Below are positions 14,891 to 41,158 of a stretch of DNA of 64,000 nucleotides, piece by piece. The DNA comes from Ceratothoa steindachneri (lineage: Eukaryota > Arthropoda > Malacostraca > Isopoda > Cymothoidae). The first letter of the stretch is position 1. Each line of letters opens with the position of its first letter. The DNA is taken from NCBI GenBank assembly GCA_963969495.1, contig OZ018326.1, positions 5,213,669 through 5,277,668 on the forward strand, given 5' to 3'. The notes below the pieces were generated by a model. The model was not told the origin of the DNA. It did no database searches and was given only the letters and a program-made list of their open reading frames with translations. The position numbers and the translations under genes were made by a program.

Positions 14891-14902
14891 AATAAAATCA
14901 AG

Positions 14903-15145
14903 GTCGCGTGCTCTCACTTATTCTGATTTATCGCCTAACTACCTTCAAAATTTCAATTATTACCGGACTAACCTTAGGGAGGCCCTTGGCAATTATCCCA
15001 TTCGAAAAATAATATAACACCATGACTTTCAAATTCCCTTAGAATCAGCCGAATACTTACAATGTTATTACCAAAACAAAAAATAGCAAAACGGGGACCA
15101 AGAGACTGATCGACCGAGAGTGTGAGATATATAGGCGCACGCGAC
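14903..15145. mobile_element. 243-bp MITE-like repeat, deletion relative of the 34155-39324 element
   Basis: Ends are GTCGCGTGC (14903-14911) and GCACGCGAC (15137-15145), a 9-bp perfect inverted repeat. The left part (CTCACTTATTCTGATTTA...) matches 34155-34316. The right part (from AAATTC...GAATACTTAC at 15031 through GCAAAACGGGGACC) matches 39212-39324. It therefore looks like the two ends of the large element joined at a short repeat both ends carry. No coding capacity and no clear target duplication. Confidence 0.75.
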
Positions 15146-16915
15146 TAAGCGTACGCAACTAAAAATTTAAAGCTAAAATTAATGATTTGGAGAATTTTTC
15201 AAAAATTCCCTTTTTCTGCCCTAAACTGTATAAATTTTGTTTCCAAACAGCTATTTTCACCCTTATATTTGTTTTGTTTGTATAATATGAAATATATTTG
15301 AAAAATTTATTTATTGTCTTGTTAAAATATTACAAAGTACTGTTAATCAATATTAATTGAAACTATAAACAACCTTTGTGTCAAAATATTGTTTTAACTC
15401 CAAATAAGTGTGAAAATTAAAATAGATTTTAACAAAATTTAAGTAAAGGTTATTCGTTTAAACAATATATTTAATCCGAAATTTATAAATAAAGATCCTA
15501 ACTGTGAAAAGTGCTTCAGTTATCCTCTTTCATAAATGTAATTGTATCTATTTTTCTTAGATTTTCTTTTTAAATGTACACTCACTATCTGCTCTTTGAC
15601 CAGTAATTTTAATATTCTTTTAGAGATTGCTGGATGAACAAATAAAGCATGAGGATAATTCATTATGAAGGCCATTTCTCTAAAAAGGACGAGGGAAATT
15701 ATATAATTATATATTTTGATTTGATTCGCGCAGCACAAAACGAATTTAGAACAACCAAAGATTGAGGAAAGAAGGGAGACGGAGCAAGACGGTAAGTAAA
15801 TATAAATGTCTTAATACCGATGGGCTTGGAGCAATTCTCTAATCATGTTCAAGAATTTTATAAACAAACAGAGTGAAATCATGAAAAGAATTTGATTTAA
15901 TTTTCAATAAAACCACCAGGAACACCGATTATGCTCTTATAGAGAAGAGCGCAGAAAAATAAGTCAATGTGTTCCTCTTTCTCTCTTGTTTGTAGAATTT
16001 TCCTTCAAGCAGCTTCTAAACTTCCTCTATTTATCAGATTTAATGGCTCAATACAAAATTATGAAGGCAACAGCAGGTAGTTTATTAAACAAATGTACAC
16101 AGCTACTCGTTATTTATTGCCTATATAAATAAAATGGATACTAAGTAAATGAACCCTAGGATTTAGTAAATTTCCACTAGGTACCGTGCCGAAACGAATC
16201 CCACAAAACACAATAAATTATGCTGAACAAATCACGTAGAGAGAGGAGGAAGCAATAATTTTATTTTGCTCTCTTAATTTTCGGAAAATATTCATGATTC
16301 ATGATTATGTTTACAGTATATTATAAAAACGGAATATAGACGATGTGTAGCTTAAGGTTTGGTTTCAAATTTATAAATTTAACATTAATTTTCTAAATAA
16401 GAAAGACGTAATTTAATACAAAGTGAGAGTCTCTCTTTCAGTATGTATATAATTTAGAGTAATATTCTTTCCTTCTACCGATACATTGGCCATATCAGTA
16501 AAATATTGCTTAATTGTTAGTACGCACCGTTGACTCCCAATTACACATATGCATTCCACTCAACGAAACAATAGATATTAACTGGTAAGAATAGGGTGAT
16601 GGGTAGAATAACTGGTAGGGGGGACAACAACGAGGGCAGTGATATCAGATGGGTAAGAGAAGTAGCACGGAAGGTGGAGTGCAAATTATTTGTTAGGATT
16701 CAACAAAGGTTCTTTGAGTGAGAGTAGGAGGAAGGAAAAGGAAAGAAGAGGCTACGACAGAGCTGAAGGATTATATTTTTAACGAAGGAGGATGAAAAGC
16801 CCCCATTTAAATAAACTTTGCATATTCTGGCTACTTACTTGTGCTTGACTGAATATATGGATGGAGTGTTTGAATCAAATTGGATTTTCGAGAGTATGTT
16901 TCGTGCATTGTCCAG
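15146..16915. other. AT-rich, no recognisable gene
   Basis: Long stretches with few G/C. The minus frame 15738-15520 (72 codons) has no domain. Near 16590-16760 a G-rich patch reads on the plus strand IRWVREVARKVECKLFVRI, which resembles coding sequence I cannot place. Confidence 0.5.
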
Positions 16916-33309: not shown

Positions 33310-34150
33310 AACTTTAAACATTAATGTCTTTGGTTTCACTGAAATCAGACTAGATCCGAACCTTGTGACTCCTTATGAAATGCCAGGATAATATATGTTT
33401 AATAACTGTACAAATGTTCATGCTGGTAGTGTGGTCTTATATGTGTTAAATGACTACGACTCATCTGTTGTGAATCGCCTTACCATTTCGGATTCTTTTA
33501 TCGAAACAATTGGTGTGGAGGCGACGGTTGGAACGAAAAAGTATATATTTTTATGTATTTACCGGCCTCCAAATCTGAATGTTCATAATGTTGTTCATAC
33601 AACAATGTCTGATATTCTCTCTTCAGTGTACGAAAAGAAAGATTAGGGTATTTTTATTAAAGGGCATTTTAATCTAGACTTAATAAAATGTAATGAAACT
33701 ACTGTTCTTGAATTGATTCACTTAATGTTTTTCTTCTCACTCCAATCATATATAACAAAGCCGCCCAGAGTCACCAGCACCTCAGCCACACCTATAGATC
33801 ACATATGGGCAATCCATTCGGATTAAAGTATTGGTAACTATATAATCGAAACTGATATCTCGGACTATTATCCCACATTATCTCGGATAAAGCTTGAAAA
33901 AACTAAACAGGAACTTCAGATTATTTATAGAAGAGGTCTTACAAAGTTTTCAATGGAAAAATCTTTTAATTTTTCTGTTGTAAATTGAAATAATATAATA
34001 AATTCAAATTGTTTTGACGAAACTTACACTCTTGTTTACAAAGAGTTTAACAGACCTTTCTCAGAAGCACTTTACGTTTAAAAAATAGCGTAAATAAGAA
34101 GATAAATGCAGCCCATTTACTACTCCAGCCTTAGACCAATTCTGATGACC
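33310..34150 (+). pseudogene. Endonuclease half of a split non-LTR element
   Basis: Reads VFGFTEIRLDPNLVTPYEMP in part (33325-33390), FNNCTNVHAGSVVLYVLNDY and VEATVGTKKYIFLCIYRPPN (33395-33646), then GHFNLDL near 33663 where GDFNxDL is normal, TKPPRVTSTSATPIDHIW, and ISDYYPTLS near 33855 where SDHxP is normal. Two catalytic endonuclease residues (Asp in GDFN, His in SDH) are thus replaced. The protein stops making sense at 34150, exactly where the 5.17-kb insert begins, and its continuation is found at 39325. Confidence 0.85.
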
Positions 34151-34339
34151 AAACGTTGCGTGCTCTCACTTATTCTGATTTATGACCTTACGAACTTCAA
34201 AACTTTCAATAATTATCGGTATAACCTTGGGAAGACCTTGAAAATGATATCATTAGAAAGAGAATATAAAACAACATAAGCTTTTCGAATTTCGTTAAAA
34301 TCGGCCGAATAGTTATGAGCTTATAGACAAAACAAAATA

Positions 34340-35050
34340 ATTGGAGGGATAACATTGGGTGGTGGTGGTGTAAGTTGTGTAGGTGGTGGTGGTTGTGGTG
34401 GTGGTGTAGGTGATATAGGTGCAGGTGGTGGTGGTGGTGTAGATGGTGGTAGTATAGGTGGTAGTGGTGTAGCTGGTGTTGGTATAGGTGGTGGGGGTGT
34501 AGGTATACGTGTAGGTGGTGGTGGTCGTGTAGGTGGGAGTGGTGTAACTGGTGTAGTTGGTGGTGTTTTAGGTGGTACTATTGTAATTAGGGCTGGTGTA
34601 GGTGTTGTCTGCGGTGGTAGTGATGGTGTAGGTATAGTAGGTGGAGCGGTGTAGGCGGTGGTAGAGCTTGTTGTGGTGTAGGTGGTGAGGCTATTAGTGG
34701 TGTAAGTGGTGAGGCTGGTGTGGTGTAGGTGGTGAGGGTGGCGGTGATGTATGTTTCGGAGTAGATGGGGATGGTGGTAGTAGTGTAGGTGGTAGTTGTG
34801 TAGGTGGTTGTGTTTAGGTGGTGGTGGTTTTGATGGTAATAATGTATGTGGTGGTGTAGGAGGTGATTTAGGTGGTGCTGTTTTAGGTGTTGTGTGTGGT
34901 CGTGTTTTAGGTGGCGGTGGTGTTGTAGAAAGTTTTAGCGTAGGTGGTGGTGGTGTAGGGGGTGGTGGTGTAGGGGGTGGTGGTGTAGGTGGTGGCAGTG
35001 TAGTTAATAGTGGTTTGGGCGGAGGTGGTGTAAGGGGTGCAGGTCTGTGC
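34340..35050. repeat. GGT/GTA minisatellite, left
   Basis: Imperfect array of units such as GGTGGTGGTGTA, about 700 bases, strongly G/T on the plus strand. Gly/Val-rich open frames across it are a product of the periodicity. Confidence 0.9.
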
Positions 35051-35063
35051 TGCCGAGAAAGAG

Positions 35064-35402
35064 CACCGAATATATAAAATAATAACTTTACAGGAGAGGG
35101 GTTTAAAGTTTTCCTTTATTGCAATGTCCCCAAAATAGTATATTTTCAAGATTCTGTTAAACGTTCAATGTATTTACTCCATTATGGGCATCATCTTTCA
35201 TATTTGTACTTTCTTCTGTGCATTAATTTTATATTTTGGGCCCAGTTGCACAAAAACAGTTTTTCCTTTGGTTTGTGGATTGCTATTCACCACAAATGCA
35301 GAGGAAGGAAACCGAATATAAGTATAATCGGTGTTTTTCTTCTTGAATGACCATTAATATTAAACAATGAGACACCGATTATACCTATATTCGGTGTTTT
35401 TA
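35064..35402. repeat. Left subterminal iterons (CACCGAATAT / ATATTCGGTG)
   Basis: Copies: CACCGAATATA at 35064-35074; ACCGAATATAAGTATAATCG followed by GTGTTTTT (35311-35338); ACACCGATTATACCTATATT followed by CGGTGTTTT (35372-35400). The last two are inverted copies of each other and could form a large hairpin. Same motif family at the right side. Confidence 0.75.
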
Positions 35403-35825
35403 CTTTGTATTATTGACAACATTAGGCAATCAGACTTCATTATAAATATGGCAACCAAATTACATTACACATTCATCACTGTTTTTGTTTATTATTCGGA
35501 TTTTTAACAAGTCATTGGGAAGGTATAAACAATTCTATAAATCTATGTAATTTTTAGAGATATTTGGACCATAAAAATACAAACCAAACAGAATATTTAA
35601 AAAATGCAATGAATTTATCTTTCTATTTGCATGTTAATATTAGTTTGAAATATACTTAATTTAATAAAGAAAATAGTGAACATAAAGTCATATTTAAAAC
35701 GATCTGAGTAAAAGTATAAAACTTCACAAAAACTGTAGTTATATCCCTTTTTAAGGAAAAATGACTAAATACACAGAAGTAAATCCATTTTAAACTTAAC
35801 GGGAAATTTCATTAGACCTTGATGT

Positions 35826-37814
35826 TTAATCTAGTCTAGAATTAAAGAGATCGGAGATATTCTCACTAGTAGGGAGGTTATTTCAAAATGCTCGACGGGA
35901 CATAGGCATTCTTATAATAAGACCTGAGTGAATTTTATCCAATTTTGCTTTTTGAATTCCTCTTGGCTTTGATGAATATTTCGCCGAATAACTGCGTGGA
36001 ATAATTTCTTTCATAAATTTAACTTTAGTTCCAGAATCCTGAAATGCTTTTTTATAGATCAGTCCGTGCAGACCTTTGTCAAATCAGACATCAAATAAAT
36101 CATGTAAAAGAGGAATATTATTCTCAGAAGATGCTCTTCGGGTTGTTCTTAACCTTGACAAGTTTTCGTAGGCCTTAAAATCATAAAGTTGCATTTCTAG
36201 GACCGTTGTTCTCTTTGTTGAAAATTCCAGTCAAACGCAGAGGTCTCTCATATCATATAGATTCTTCTTTTTCCGGATTACTTGTTCAATTTTTCCATGA
36301 ACGCCATCTGCGGCTAAGAATGTGTGACCGGTGACAAGATACGAGTATTTCAACGTGATTTCTGAGGGTTCAAGATCTTCATTAACAACTTAATCAAATG
36401 CTGAATATAATGCCCAGTTTTTATTCTGAGCAACGCAATTATCTGCCCAAAATATAAACTTCTTTGGATCTCTATTTTCTTTAATTACTTTGATATAGGA
36501 TGATGCAACATCAGGAGCATTTCTACCTCGAAGACTTTTATTCAAAACTACACAATAGTGATGTTGATTTTTCTTTAAAGAAGCAAATCTTTCATTAAAC
36601 ACAACCATTCTTGACCAGAAAAAACTTTCCTTAACATTAGGCATCTTTGGCAGGAGCAAAACCTTTTGCATATCGATGGCAAATATTAGGAGTTCATCCA
36701 TTTGTTCGTATATCTCACTATCTTTATTGCATTCTTTTCTTGGTTCTTTTTTCATTTCATTGGGAAATTGAGCCTTTTCAGCACTTTCTTTATTCATATT
36801 CAATTTATAAAATAAGCATGTTGAACATTTGTCAACACAAGGTTCAGAAAAAATTATGTTCATTTTCTTTAGTATATATAATCCGAAAGGATTCATATGA
36901 ACATCGGACTGATGCGTGTTTTTCTCGAAATAGTTTGTACATTGAAGCAACAGAGAGATCTGTTGGAAGGTATCTTACATGTAAAGCATGGTCACTTCTG
37001 AAATGAGAAATAACTGGATTGAAAGATTCGATGTGATTCATTATTACTTCTCTATTAACTCGATTGGTAGGTTCACGTTTTTCTCTGTTATCTGTCACTG
37101 CAATATTTCCTAACAAATTAGTTGTGGATGAAGAAGCTGCATCAATGGAATGAAATAATAATTTTATAACCTGATCTTGACTGTACCCTAAAGTGCTGAG
37201 AAAGAATTTCTGACAGACTTTGATTGCTTGTCCTTGGGCATCGCTCAGTGTATGCACATACGATGACTTCTTCCTTGATAAATCTTCCTGAATATGCATT
37301 CTTTCTACTTCGTTCCTTGTTACTTTGCTTGACAACCATGGTCGCCTCATATCGTAGCAGTTTTTCCAATATTCTGAGTGAATGTGGTTTGGCATTTTAC
37401 CTGAAAACTTGTTGTGTCATTGATTTCTTCCTTTTTTTAACCGCAGAAGCAACAAAGGTATGATGGGAAGCCATTTGATTGTTATACACTGCTTCATGGG
37501 CATCAGAAACTCCATGAGATTGAACTTCGATAGCAGCTGCTATATTATTCTCTTAAATGCATGAAATGTCTTGCTCTTCTATCCTCAAAACACCTCTGAA
37601 AGGAGAAAAATAAACAAGTATTTATGCATTGCATTTAAGTAGAACTTACAATAATTTCGGGAATTACTACATTATCATAAGATAATCATCACCATCATCA
37701 TCTTATATTACCTCCCTCACCACAACCTTAATTAATGCTTGTTACCTTTTATACACAGCATAACTGTGCAAGTATTTTTGTGTTAACAAATGGACACACA
37801 TATATATATATATA

Positions 37815-37883
<69 letters not shown>

Positions 37884-38789
37884 AACGATATATTAAAGAT
37901 AAACGATAGTGAAAGTTAAATGTCGGTGACTCAGCAAGAGATGCAGCAGTCAGCCGGGCAGTGCCGTGAACATGGTAAACACACATAATGCACAGAAGAG
38001 AACATAATCTGGATCCAAATAAAACAAAATCCTAAATTTCCGGTTTATAGACCGACAATTCACCCATAGTGGGTCTAGCAGTCTAGGCTACCACAGAAAC
38101 AAAGAAAAAGAGGCTGGAGAAACAGATGAAGCAAAACAAGCGAAAAAGAAGATCAGCAAAAGAAAAATATGCTGGGGTCAGGAGAGCACTTAAACCTCCA
38201 GGAACAAACACACGAGGAAGTGTAAGCCTGAACCCATTTGCGGGCTCATATTTAGTTTTATATGATTTAATTTAATTAAAGATTAATTTGATACGAGAGA
38301 AAACACAAACTAATCATCTCTCACCAGCCTAGCTATTCAACTCCCCCTTGAAATCAACAATGAAAAGATTTAATGAATTCTTATTTCTTTTACATTCCAG
38401 TAATTATGACTATATTTATAATACGGGCCATATTATTAAAAAAATTAGACTTATTACAAATATAAAAAAACATTTAATTATAAATCTAAAATAAAATAAA
38501 TAGGCAAACGCATCTTTGGTAAGAAAACAAAACTAAATTCAAATTAAAGCTTAATATGTTTTATACTTACTGTTCTTTTAAAAGTTGGAAGACGTTTGAT
38601 AGTGTATTGTACATAGTTGAAAGCCATGGCTGCCAGCCCTTCTGCTTTAACGACGAGATTATCTCCGACTGAATTAAAAAGATAAAACTTGACATAGGCA
38701 GAAAAAAACTCTCTTGTCCATTTCAGTACAAACGCGTAGCTCACAATTTGTTCAGGAAAAAACAGGTTGCTGCATGAGAGGAGCGGCAA
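35826..38789 (-). pseudogene. Transposase-like D...D...D protein, spliced, of an uncharacterised family
   Basis: A first exon candidate (38789-38571, MPLLSCSNLFFPEQIVS...) ends at a canonical donor GTAAGTATAA (from 38570). An acceptor (TCCTTTCAG) at 37596-37604 opens the next coding part. 37395-36844 carries HSEYWKNCYDMRRPWLSSKV, FFLSTLGYSQDQV and ISHFRSD...RYLPTDLSVASMYKL. After a shift near 36850-36870, 36839-36393 has CVDKCSTCLFYK, FAIDMQKVLLLP (Asp at 36672-36674) and FWADNCVAQNKNWALYSAF (Asp at 36441-36443). Past a TAA at 36390-36392 it continues in frame with VTGHTFLAADGVHGKIEQVI (Asp at 36306-36308) to a stop at 35826-35828; further TGA codons at 36231, 36084 and 35883. Known relatives are unnamed proteins (DUF7869-type, from memory) with this DMQK / DNCxxQNKN / DxxHxxIE signature. 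Confidence 0.72.
37800..37880. repeat. (TA)n microsatellite
   Basis: About 80 bases of TA with one GA interruption, lying within the inferred first intron of the transposase-like gene. Confidence 0.97.
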
Positions 38790-38808
38790 TAAATTGATAG
38801 AAAGCTTG

Positions 38809-39080
38809 CATATTCGGTGTTTTACGTCTGGATATTGTGCTACATATATATGAAACAGACCGAATATTCAGTATAATTGGTGTTTAACCGCTGCATTTTG
38901 CATATTCGGTGTTTCTTCTATGTTAACCATGGTAGTGTCGCGTATATTTGGTGTGTGGACAATTTCTAACTCAAAACTAGTGAAAGATGGGCGTAAACCG
39001 ATGCCAGAAATAGAATCTACGGGTCGAATTAAATAAGAGTCAATATATAACTCAAATTTAGAAAATTTGTATATTCGGTT
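38809..39080. repeat. Right subterminal iterons (ATATTCGGTGTTT)
   Basis: Copies: CATATTCGGTGTTTTA (38810-38824), ACCGAATATTCAGTATAATT followed by GGTGTTT (38859-38885), CATATTCGGTGTTTC (38901-38915), TATATTTGGTGTG (38943-38955), TATATTCGGTTGTC (39070-39083). The second copies the composite motif at 35311-35338. Confidence 0.75.
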
Positions 39081-39094
39081 GTCTTCCTTTGCAC

Positions 39095-39165
39095 GGTAGA
39101 GATGGTGGTGGTGTAGGTGGTGATGATGTATGTAGGTGGTGTTGGTGGTGGTGGAGTAGGTGATC
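39095..39165. repeat. GGT/GTA minisatellite, right
   Basis: About 70 bases of GGTGGTGTAGGTGGTGATG-type repeat, same orientation and unit as the left array. Confidence 0.85.
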
Positions 39166-40096
39166 TAGGTGATGATTCGAAAGTGAATGCTAAACAGCAT
39201 GAGGGGTTTAAATTTCGTTAGTATCGGCTGAATAGTTACAATGTCATTACAAAAAAAAAAGCAAAACGGGGACCGACCGACATAATGAAATGTAGAGTCA
39301 CCAACGACTAGACTCGCACGCGACTAAAAGCAGCATAAGAGGAAAACATAGATTAGAAGGACTTTCAAATACATGGCCAGTAACGTATGAACCAACTTAT
39401 AAACAATATAGGAATAAACTACCATCACTGGTAAGTGAAGCGAGGAACTTTTATTACAAAACCCAACTGAATGAGAATCAAGGAAACCCATAAAACAGGT
39501 GAAAACCATAAACTGTCTTCTGGACAGAACTAATAATGTAAGAAAACATACCATTGAATTAAACCCACCAAGCACATATGTGTTAGGAAAGTTTAATGAA
39601 GACTTTATTCAAAATTATTTTACAATTAATAACTATGATTACAATTGCCTAACTTCTCCATGTACCCTAGCACCAGCTAACAAAACTGTAGTTCAAACTA
39701 TTTTTAACAATTTAAAAACAGACATTCCTGGCTATGACAACATTTCCCCGAAAATAATAAAATGCTCTTCTTCATCTATATCTACCACTCTGACTCACAT
39801 AATAAACCTACAACTAAAATCAGTAATTCCCTTATTTAAGTTACGTGAAAGGGGTGATCCAAACAATTACCGTGTCATTTATATACTTCCAGCATTTAGT
39901 AAAATATTTAGAAAAAATTTCCTTAGATTAATTAATTATCTCAAAAAGAACAACTTAATAACTGAACAGCATGGCTTTAGGCCAAAACACCACACAGAAT
40001 GAGCACTTTGTTAATGAAATGTATTCATGTTTAGAGGAAAAAATGTACGTAGTTGGAGTTTTCAGATTTATCAAAGGCTTTTGATACTGTAGACCA

Positions 40097-41158
40097 GTTT
40101 TTCAACCTTTTTTATTTCACGGCACATCAAGCCAGGGAGTAATATGGTCGAGGCACACCATCAGTATTTAGGATTATATTTAATCATATAGTAATAAATG
40201 CTAATAAATGTTCATAAGTTAGGAATGCTAATCATTTATTAAATTAGTGGCCAAACGTATTATAGTACTCACATAATTAAATTTAAAAGCCTTATCATAC
40301 ATACCTAAAACTATCAATGAGATATTTGTTCTTGGCGTTGCTTCATAATTTCCCTTATCTGATGCCGAATGTTGGGTAGGCATATCCGCAAGTCCTCCTC
40401 CAGTGTCTCAAGCCGCGACCTGTTCTTATTTTTTAGTATGTTCATTGTAGAGAAAACAACCTCACACATATATGAAGTTGAGAAAGGAAGAAGAGATTCA
40501 ATTGCTTTCTTTGTAATGGCGGGGTAATCGTCTTGAATGGAGAAAAAAAAGCAGTCATATTTGTGGATTTCTTTCTTTCTTTGCATACTATAAAGAATGT
40601 TCAAGGATTGAAATATATCAGCCAGGAATGTCACTTTATTGCAGCAGGATTCATCACTAAGTAGATCAGCCAGGTTGGACTCTTCTAATGTTAAAAATAT
40701 AATACTCACCTCCTCATTTATTAAACAATTATACATCAATTGTAAACATCATCCTTAATAACATACCTTCCTCAAATATCCCGTAGCACACTTACAGTCT
40801 CTTTAAGAATTAATCTTCTTAGATTTCTCACACTTAATAAAAAATAATATATCAACTCCTAATACCAAACTTATAAATCTTAATAGGCCTAAGAACAAAA
40901 AAATAAAATATTGGCTTGACATATTGAAAGATAGAAAAAGAAATTATTGATATTATTAAAAATCTGGCAACTATAGCTGTGGCAACTATAGCTCTGTTAC
41001 AGCAGGACACTTTATTGTGGCACAAGTACAAAAATTTTATCATACATTTGTACAGTACCGAAATTTGTTCATTGCTCTTTCTTGTTTGAGGGAGAATCAA
41101 CTTTCCTCAAATCTCCCATGGCACACCTGCAGTTCCTTTGTGGCACACTGGTCTACAG
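40097..41158 (-). mobile_element. hAT element nested in the RT
   Basis: The RT reading DTVD / VDHQ is interrupted by about 1.06 kb flanked by a direct repeat tgtagacca (40088-40096 and 41159-41167), the size expected for hAT target duplications (8 bp). The left end CAGTTTTTCAACC (from 40095) is a classic hAT end. The right end contains TGTGGCACACTG (41140-41150), whose complement starts CAGTGTGCCACA. A related end-like stretch recurs internally at 40770-40806, so one hAT end may be nested in another. Confidence 0.8.
40314..40739 (-). pseudogene. hAT transposase C-terminal domain (ZBED/SCAND3-like)
   Basis: 141 codons: NKVTFLADIFQSLNILYSMQ, DDYPAITKKAIESLLPFSTS, YMCEVVFSTMN, NKNRSRLETLEEDLRICLPN. 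This is the hAT dimerisation region (LLPFstsY.CE.vFS.m...K.k.RsRL). Begins mid-protein; DNA-binding and catalytic parts are absent in this short copy, so it cannot transpose by itself. Confidence 0.85.

Follow-up and report, generated by a model that had tools for sequence, protein, structure and literature searches.

A dead DUF7869-encoding DNA transposon, nested in a short repeat within a LINE of Ceratothoa steindachneri

A 64,000-nt stretch of the Ceratothoa steindachneri genome (OZ018326.1), hereafter the window, carries at 35045..39099 what we are confident is a dead copy of a multicopy DNA transposon of the cut-and-paste type. It encodes a DUF7869 transposase and is nested in a short repeat, which is in turn nested in a long interspersed nuclear element (LINE, a non-long-terminal-repeat element). 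An earlier, sequence-only reading of the window had proposed one undescribed transposon at 34155-39324, and the nesting of a transposon in a short repeat in a LINE is the reason why this block resembled a single 5.17-kb element. The gene and the transposon nature of the block have been borne out, but not the limits of the element or its symmetric layout, which took nested repeats for one unit.

Ends, copies and target duplication of the inner element

The gene's 585-bp open reading frame (ORF) was searched against the 3.93-Gb host genome, as were all whole-genome queries described here. It gave 41 matches (321 first-look candidates, 40 scored); leaving out the window's own, their identity is 91-93%. 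Twenty gene-matching loci were fetched with wide flanks (L031-L050), and in all 20 the homology contiguous as in the window is confined to 35037-39104. The ends could be read from the flanks as 35045 (CTGCCG...) and 39099 (...CGGTAG), giving a window copy of 4055 bp with its transposase on the minus strand; both ends are kept in 16 of the 20 loci. Element length ranges from 3419 to 4898 bp, with a median of 3978. The copies (19 of the 20 fetched, plus the window) share a mean mutual identity of 94.7% over about 1 kb and are 95.5-98.3% identical to their majority sequence. Two of them, L031 and L034 (C11:163.1 and 165.3 Mb), have the same left flank, L034 with a second, partial copy, which suggests later duplication of the region and not independent insertions.

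The left terminal inverted repeat (TIR; 35045..35078, plus strand) has the family majority CTGCCGTGCAGAGAAAGAGCACCGAATATACAAA, from which the window copy has somewhat diverged, and the right one (39066..39099, minus strand) has the majority CTACCGTGCAAAGGAAGAACACCGAATATACAAA when read inwards; the two majorities match each other at 30 of 34 positions. Inside them lie subterminal iterons, of the types ACACCGAATATA and ATAATCGGTGT in both orientations on the left (35061..35400) and of the ATATTCGGTG type on the right (38810..39079). The iterons first described for the larger block are thus real but belong to the inner element: 12 of the 27 ATATTCGGT-like motifs in the window (at most one mismatch) fall in 35045-39099 and 15 in the other 59,945 bp, while the outer arms described below hold none. 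Inner ends near 35051/39093, taken from the iterons and a TGC(N11)ACCGAATATA motif, were replaced by 35045/39099 once the copies had been read. Within the left end there is also an imperfect palindrome of facing iterons (35295-35411), which might either act as a binding unit of its own or be left over from a nested short copy.

The four bases flanking the element are identical on the two sides in 10 of the 16 two-ended copies (ATAT, GTCT, ATTT, GACC, AGTT, ATGT, AAAT, ACAT, AAAT and ATAC) and differ by one mismatch in five and by two in one (L038). When partners were shuffled in 10,000 trials the mean was 1.0 identical pair and the maximum 6, against the 10 observed. With the register set by these copies, the presumed target duplications of the window copy are AGGT (35041..35044) and AGAT (39100..39103), which differ at one base.

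The genomic search for an empty site was made for one copy, L035, which sits in a LINE. Its flanks, joined with a single ATTT, occur at 777 genomic places with at most two mismatches (the best among the matches listed has one mismatch), and the reversed control matches none. Read by eye, the joined site translates as VPGHLGITGNE followed by RADE, which we take for the RNase H motif found in LINEs of this kind. The family therefore has many copies with both inverted ends, a target duplication of constant length and, for at least one copy, a clear and abundant empty site, as expected of a cut-and-paste TIR transposon. On this model the transposase would bind the inverted ends and iterons, excise the element and join it to target cuts staggered 4 bp apart; such joining would leave 4-bp duplications favouring A first and T last.

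The outer short repeat and its LINE host

The claim that a block of about 5.2 kb breaks a LINE was correct. The stretch of LINE tested on the left (33820..34133, plus strand) has 40 genome matches including the window, and 30 of the other 39 stop at 34127-34133. A match to the right flank (tested stretch 39326..39900, plus strand) follows on the same strand within 10 bp at 29 of these 39 places and within 60 bp at 33; at one uninterrupted LINE the left-flank match is C10:55208220-55208536 and the right-flank match starts from C10:55208537. The right flank itself has 47 matches, 35 of which begin at query base 1-7 (39325-39331). The LINE is unbroken at the five sites that were read (L054-L058), where the insertion point falls within an A-run, so that any target duplication made by the outer repeat is unreadable.

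The inverted ends proposed for the whole block do exist, with GTTGCGTGC at 34155-34163 and GCACGCGAC at 39316-39324. Together with the interruption of the LINE, they are what favours regarding 34155-39324 as one transposon with the D-D-D (three-aspartate) gene as its transposase. The ends belong, however, to a separate short repeat, split here into a left arm (34134..34349) and a right arm (39172..39325). A second copy of this repeat lies in the window at 14899..15149, with the same GTCGCGTGC...GCACGCGAC ends about 250 bp apart and without the DUF7869 gene. Against it, 34152-34337 of the left arm is 77% identical to 14900-15081 (E 1e-31) and 39175-39274 of the right arm is 76% identical to 15000-15099. 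Placed on the short repeat, the two outer arms overlap, and part of one recurs in the other in direct orientation. The short-repeat query had 4501 first-look candidates in the genome. Forty were scored, and 36 of these, the window's own included, are one match of about 250 bp running from query base 15 or lower to 254 or higher of 256, and are therefore without an insert. Three copies (L051-L053) were read letter by letter and aligned with the left arm.

Moreover, none of the 20 gene loci has the outer arms in the window's arrangement, the iterons end at 35061 and 39079, and the copies terminate at 35045 and 39099. The inner element of L037 also lies in a short repeat, but in another copy and at a position other than that in the window, and it has duplicated GACC there; this again shows the two repeats to be separate. 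The earlier reading's own refuting condition, that no other copy shares both ends, thus goes against the proposed ends (0 of 20 loci) and in favour of the corrected ones (16 of 20). The single-transposon model is refuted by these observations, and we give it almost no credence.

The outer repeat, which may be a SINE, a MITE or a Helitron-like element, is numerous and about 250-270 bp long with ends GTCGCGTGC...GCACGCGACTAA, and its interior is sometimes tandemly repeated or enlarged to a GGTGGTGTA minisatellite. L041 has part of the repeat's interior in tandem, and in the window minisatellite of the GGTGGTGTA type lies on the left of the inner element (34350..35040) and on its right (39104..39171, with 39103-39171 80% identical to 34360-34421); the outer unit is accordingly read as a short repeat whose interior has expanded. 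The order of events would be that a short repeat first inserted in the LINE, and that the transposon later inserted in the GGTGGTGTA minisatellite of this repeat.

The transposase and its bacterial relatives

The transposase gene (35829..37552, minus strand) is broken by at least one frameshift and by in-frame stops, which is not how it was first described. Neither the 194-aa ORF alone nor other single-ORF scans of the gene gave a match in Pfam. The read-through protein matches PF25273 (DUF7869) with 28.6 bits (E 1.2e-6), above the gathering cut-off of 26. The three aspartates picked out initially (codons 36672-36674, 36441-36443 and 36306-36308) correspond to conserved aspartates of the relatives and are invariant in an alignment of 11 proteins, four of them bacterial and seven others, three of these seven being named insect proteins. 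Structure prediction gives an RNase-H fold with three acidic residues, as in DDE/D transposases, and a second structure comparison (VIA-align) returned a coherent set of integrases and transposases. The protein is modelled as having an N-terminal part with conserved cysteines and, after it, a catalytic core of predicted RNase-H fold that carries the D-D-D triad.

Of 7993 candidates scored in a profile search, 1469 proteins reached E <= 1e-3 against the family alignment. PF25273 is present in every one of the 120 best, many of which are on contigs of about 2-3 kb. Readable names among the proteins listed are 'hypothetical protein' and, once, 'chaperonin'; the latter label belongs to the DUF7869 protein P0082 from Candidatus Magnetoglobus multicellularis and is probably a misnomer. 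Scans of viral contigs found no relative. A scan of genome contigs with an alignment yielded 10 bacterial loci (L059-L068) out of 42 pattern matches, from Deltaproteobacteria/Desulfobacterales, Thiomargarita, Verrucomicrobia, Nitrospirales and a metagenome-assembled genome of Legionellales. Three of these loci have ORFs of 628-659 aa, and these three together with the shorter L061 score 57.5-79.8 bits against PF25273, more strongly than the read-through protein. A single match was present in each of two bacterial genomes examined.

In seven of the 10 bacterial loci inverted repeats with arms of 39-61 nt enclose the gene and span 2046-2719 bp; their score is 28-30 of 30, where the background is 20-22. 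The other three (L060, L062 and L067) showed no such pair. By eye, the 4-mers flanking these ends, which are of the GGG/CCC type, are identical in three of the seven (L059 AAAT, L061 ATTT and L063 AATT), differ at one base in three (L065, L066 and L068) and at two in one (L064). The bacterial loci thus look like insertion-sequence-like elements with mostly A/T 4-bp flanks, a reading less fully tested than that of the host-genome family.

Might the gene have been domesticated by the host or be a passenger, and not the element's own transposase? In favour of this, the gene is damaged in the window copy, and none of the 16 two-ended copies has an intact frame, their longest stop-free stretch being 354 aa. 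Yet the same two ends surround the gene in all 16 (the loci having been chosen by the gene), the predicted fold is that of a transposase, the other ORFs tested within the element match no protein family, and the bacterial relatives mostly lie between inverted repeats. A host gene or passenger is accordingly very improbable.

The lack of an intact frame also counts against the reading of 35045-39099 as a transposon copy with its own transposase, and so do several further points. One end is unrecognisable in four of the 20 loci (L036, L040, L046 and L048), the presence of the gene in every fetched locus is no independent evidence because the loci were chosen by it, and the window copy's own flanks are not identical, those of L038 being unlike at two of four bases. 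The best Foldseek match in the PDB had E 0.012, and none fell below 0.001. With these set against the copies, ends, duplications and empty site, the transposon reading is still held with high confidence.

Classification and significance

The element is set beside the Sola superfamily by published descriptions, and a Sola family, Sola2-like, is its probable identity. Passages of one source describe Sola as having a DDD transposase, a 4-bp duplication, elements mostly of 2-9 kb and members in bacteria and metazoans (PMC10741241). The inner element has both the DDD transposase and the 4-bp target duplication, and we favour the assignment because these two features, the size and the bacterial presence all fit the published accounts of Sola. 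Sola1-3 are treated as subgroups of one superfamily in Repbase, according to part of another source (PMC4455052), and a passage on two amoebozoans gives Sola2 A/T-rich AWWT 4-bp duplications and short TIRs of 12-21 bp (PMC3627910). By description, the likeness to Sola2 lies in the DDD triad, the 4-bp and often A/T-rich duplication, the short TIRs, the size and the members in bacteria and metazoans. The element differs in its TIR of about 34 nt, to be set beside the 12-21 bp in that passage, and in a duplication that is ANNT (seven of the 10 identical ones) and not strictly AWWT (four of 10). This looser duplication speaks against the assignment.

Membership of Tc1/mariner was rejected since the duplication is 4 bp and not TA, the latter being the rule for that group in the passages seen of PMC10741241. 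The DUF7869 transposase is only 6-12% identical over aligned residues to Tc1/mariner proteins (Mos1, SETMAR/Metnase) and retroviral integrases, from which it is also set apart by Asp as third residue and by DNC..QNKN and GHT signatures. piggyBac and Kolobok, for which part of PMC9587614 gives a TTAA duplication, were likewise rejected, as no TTAA stands on either side of any of the 16 copies.

A rather unlikely alternative is that the animal and bacterial DUF7869 elements are not Sola and form a separate, previously unnamed transposase superfamily. In its favour, neither DUF7869 nor PF25273 is mentioned in the literature searched under those two names, Pfam still lists the domain as of unknown function, and the target duplications are looser than AWWT; the match of triad, duplication length, size and bacterial presence to Sola argues the other way, and a second superfamily sharing the Sola profile is less likely. 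Somewhat more doubtful still is the fuller proposal that DUF7869 proteins are a superfamily of their own, distinct from Sola and reaching from bacterial insertion-sequence-like elements (about 2-2.7 kb, flanked by mostly A/T 4-mers and with ends beginning GGG or GG) to TIR transposons of 3.4-4.9 kb in eukaryotes, probably animals. Since a D-D-D triad with a 4-bp duplication is Sola's published profile, the element is probably not undescribed as a kind, and what the host genome carries is probably a family new to a superfamily already known.

Elsewhere in the window, a 144-aa open frame at 40314-40748 on the minus strand has a sub-threshold match to a hAT dimerisation domain (PF05699, E 0.067, 13.4 bits, cut-off 21.4).

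The corrected boundaries keep later annotation from fusing two unrelated repeats. The main gain is that DUF7869 is linked to elements with defined ends in the host genome and, less fully tested, in bacteria, where the loci indicate a group of insertion-sequence-like elements. A widespread Pfam domain without assigned function thereby acquires a definite one, that of transposase in elements whose ends are known and whose target duplication measures 4 bp. If the link to Sola is true, a single profile would annotate all DUF7869 elements.
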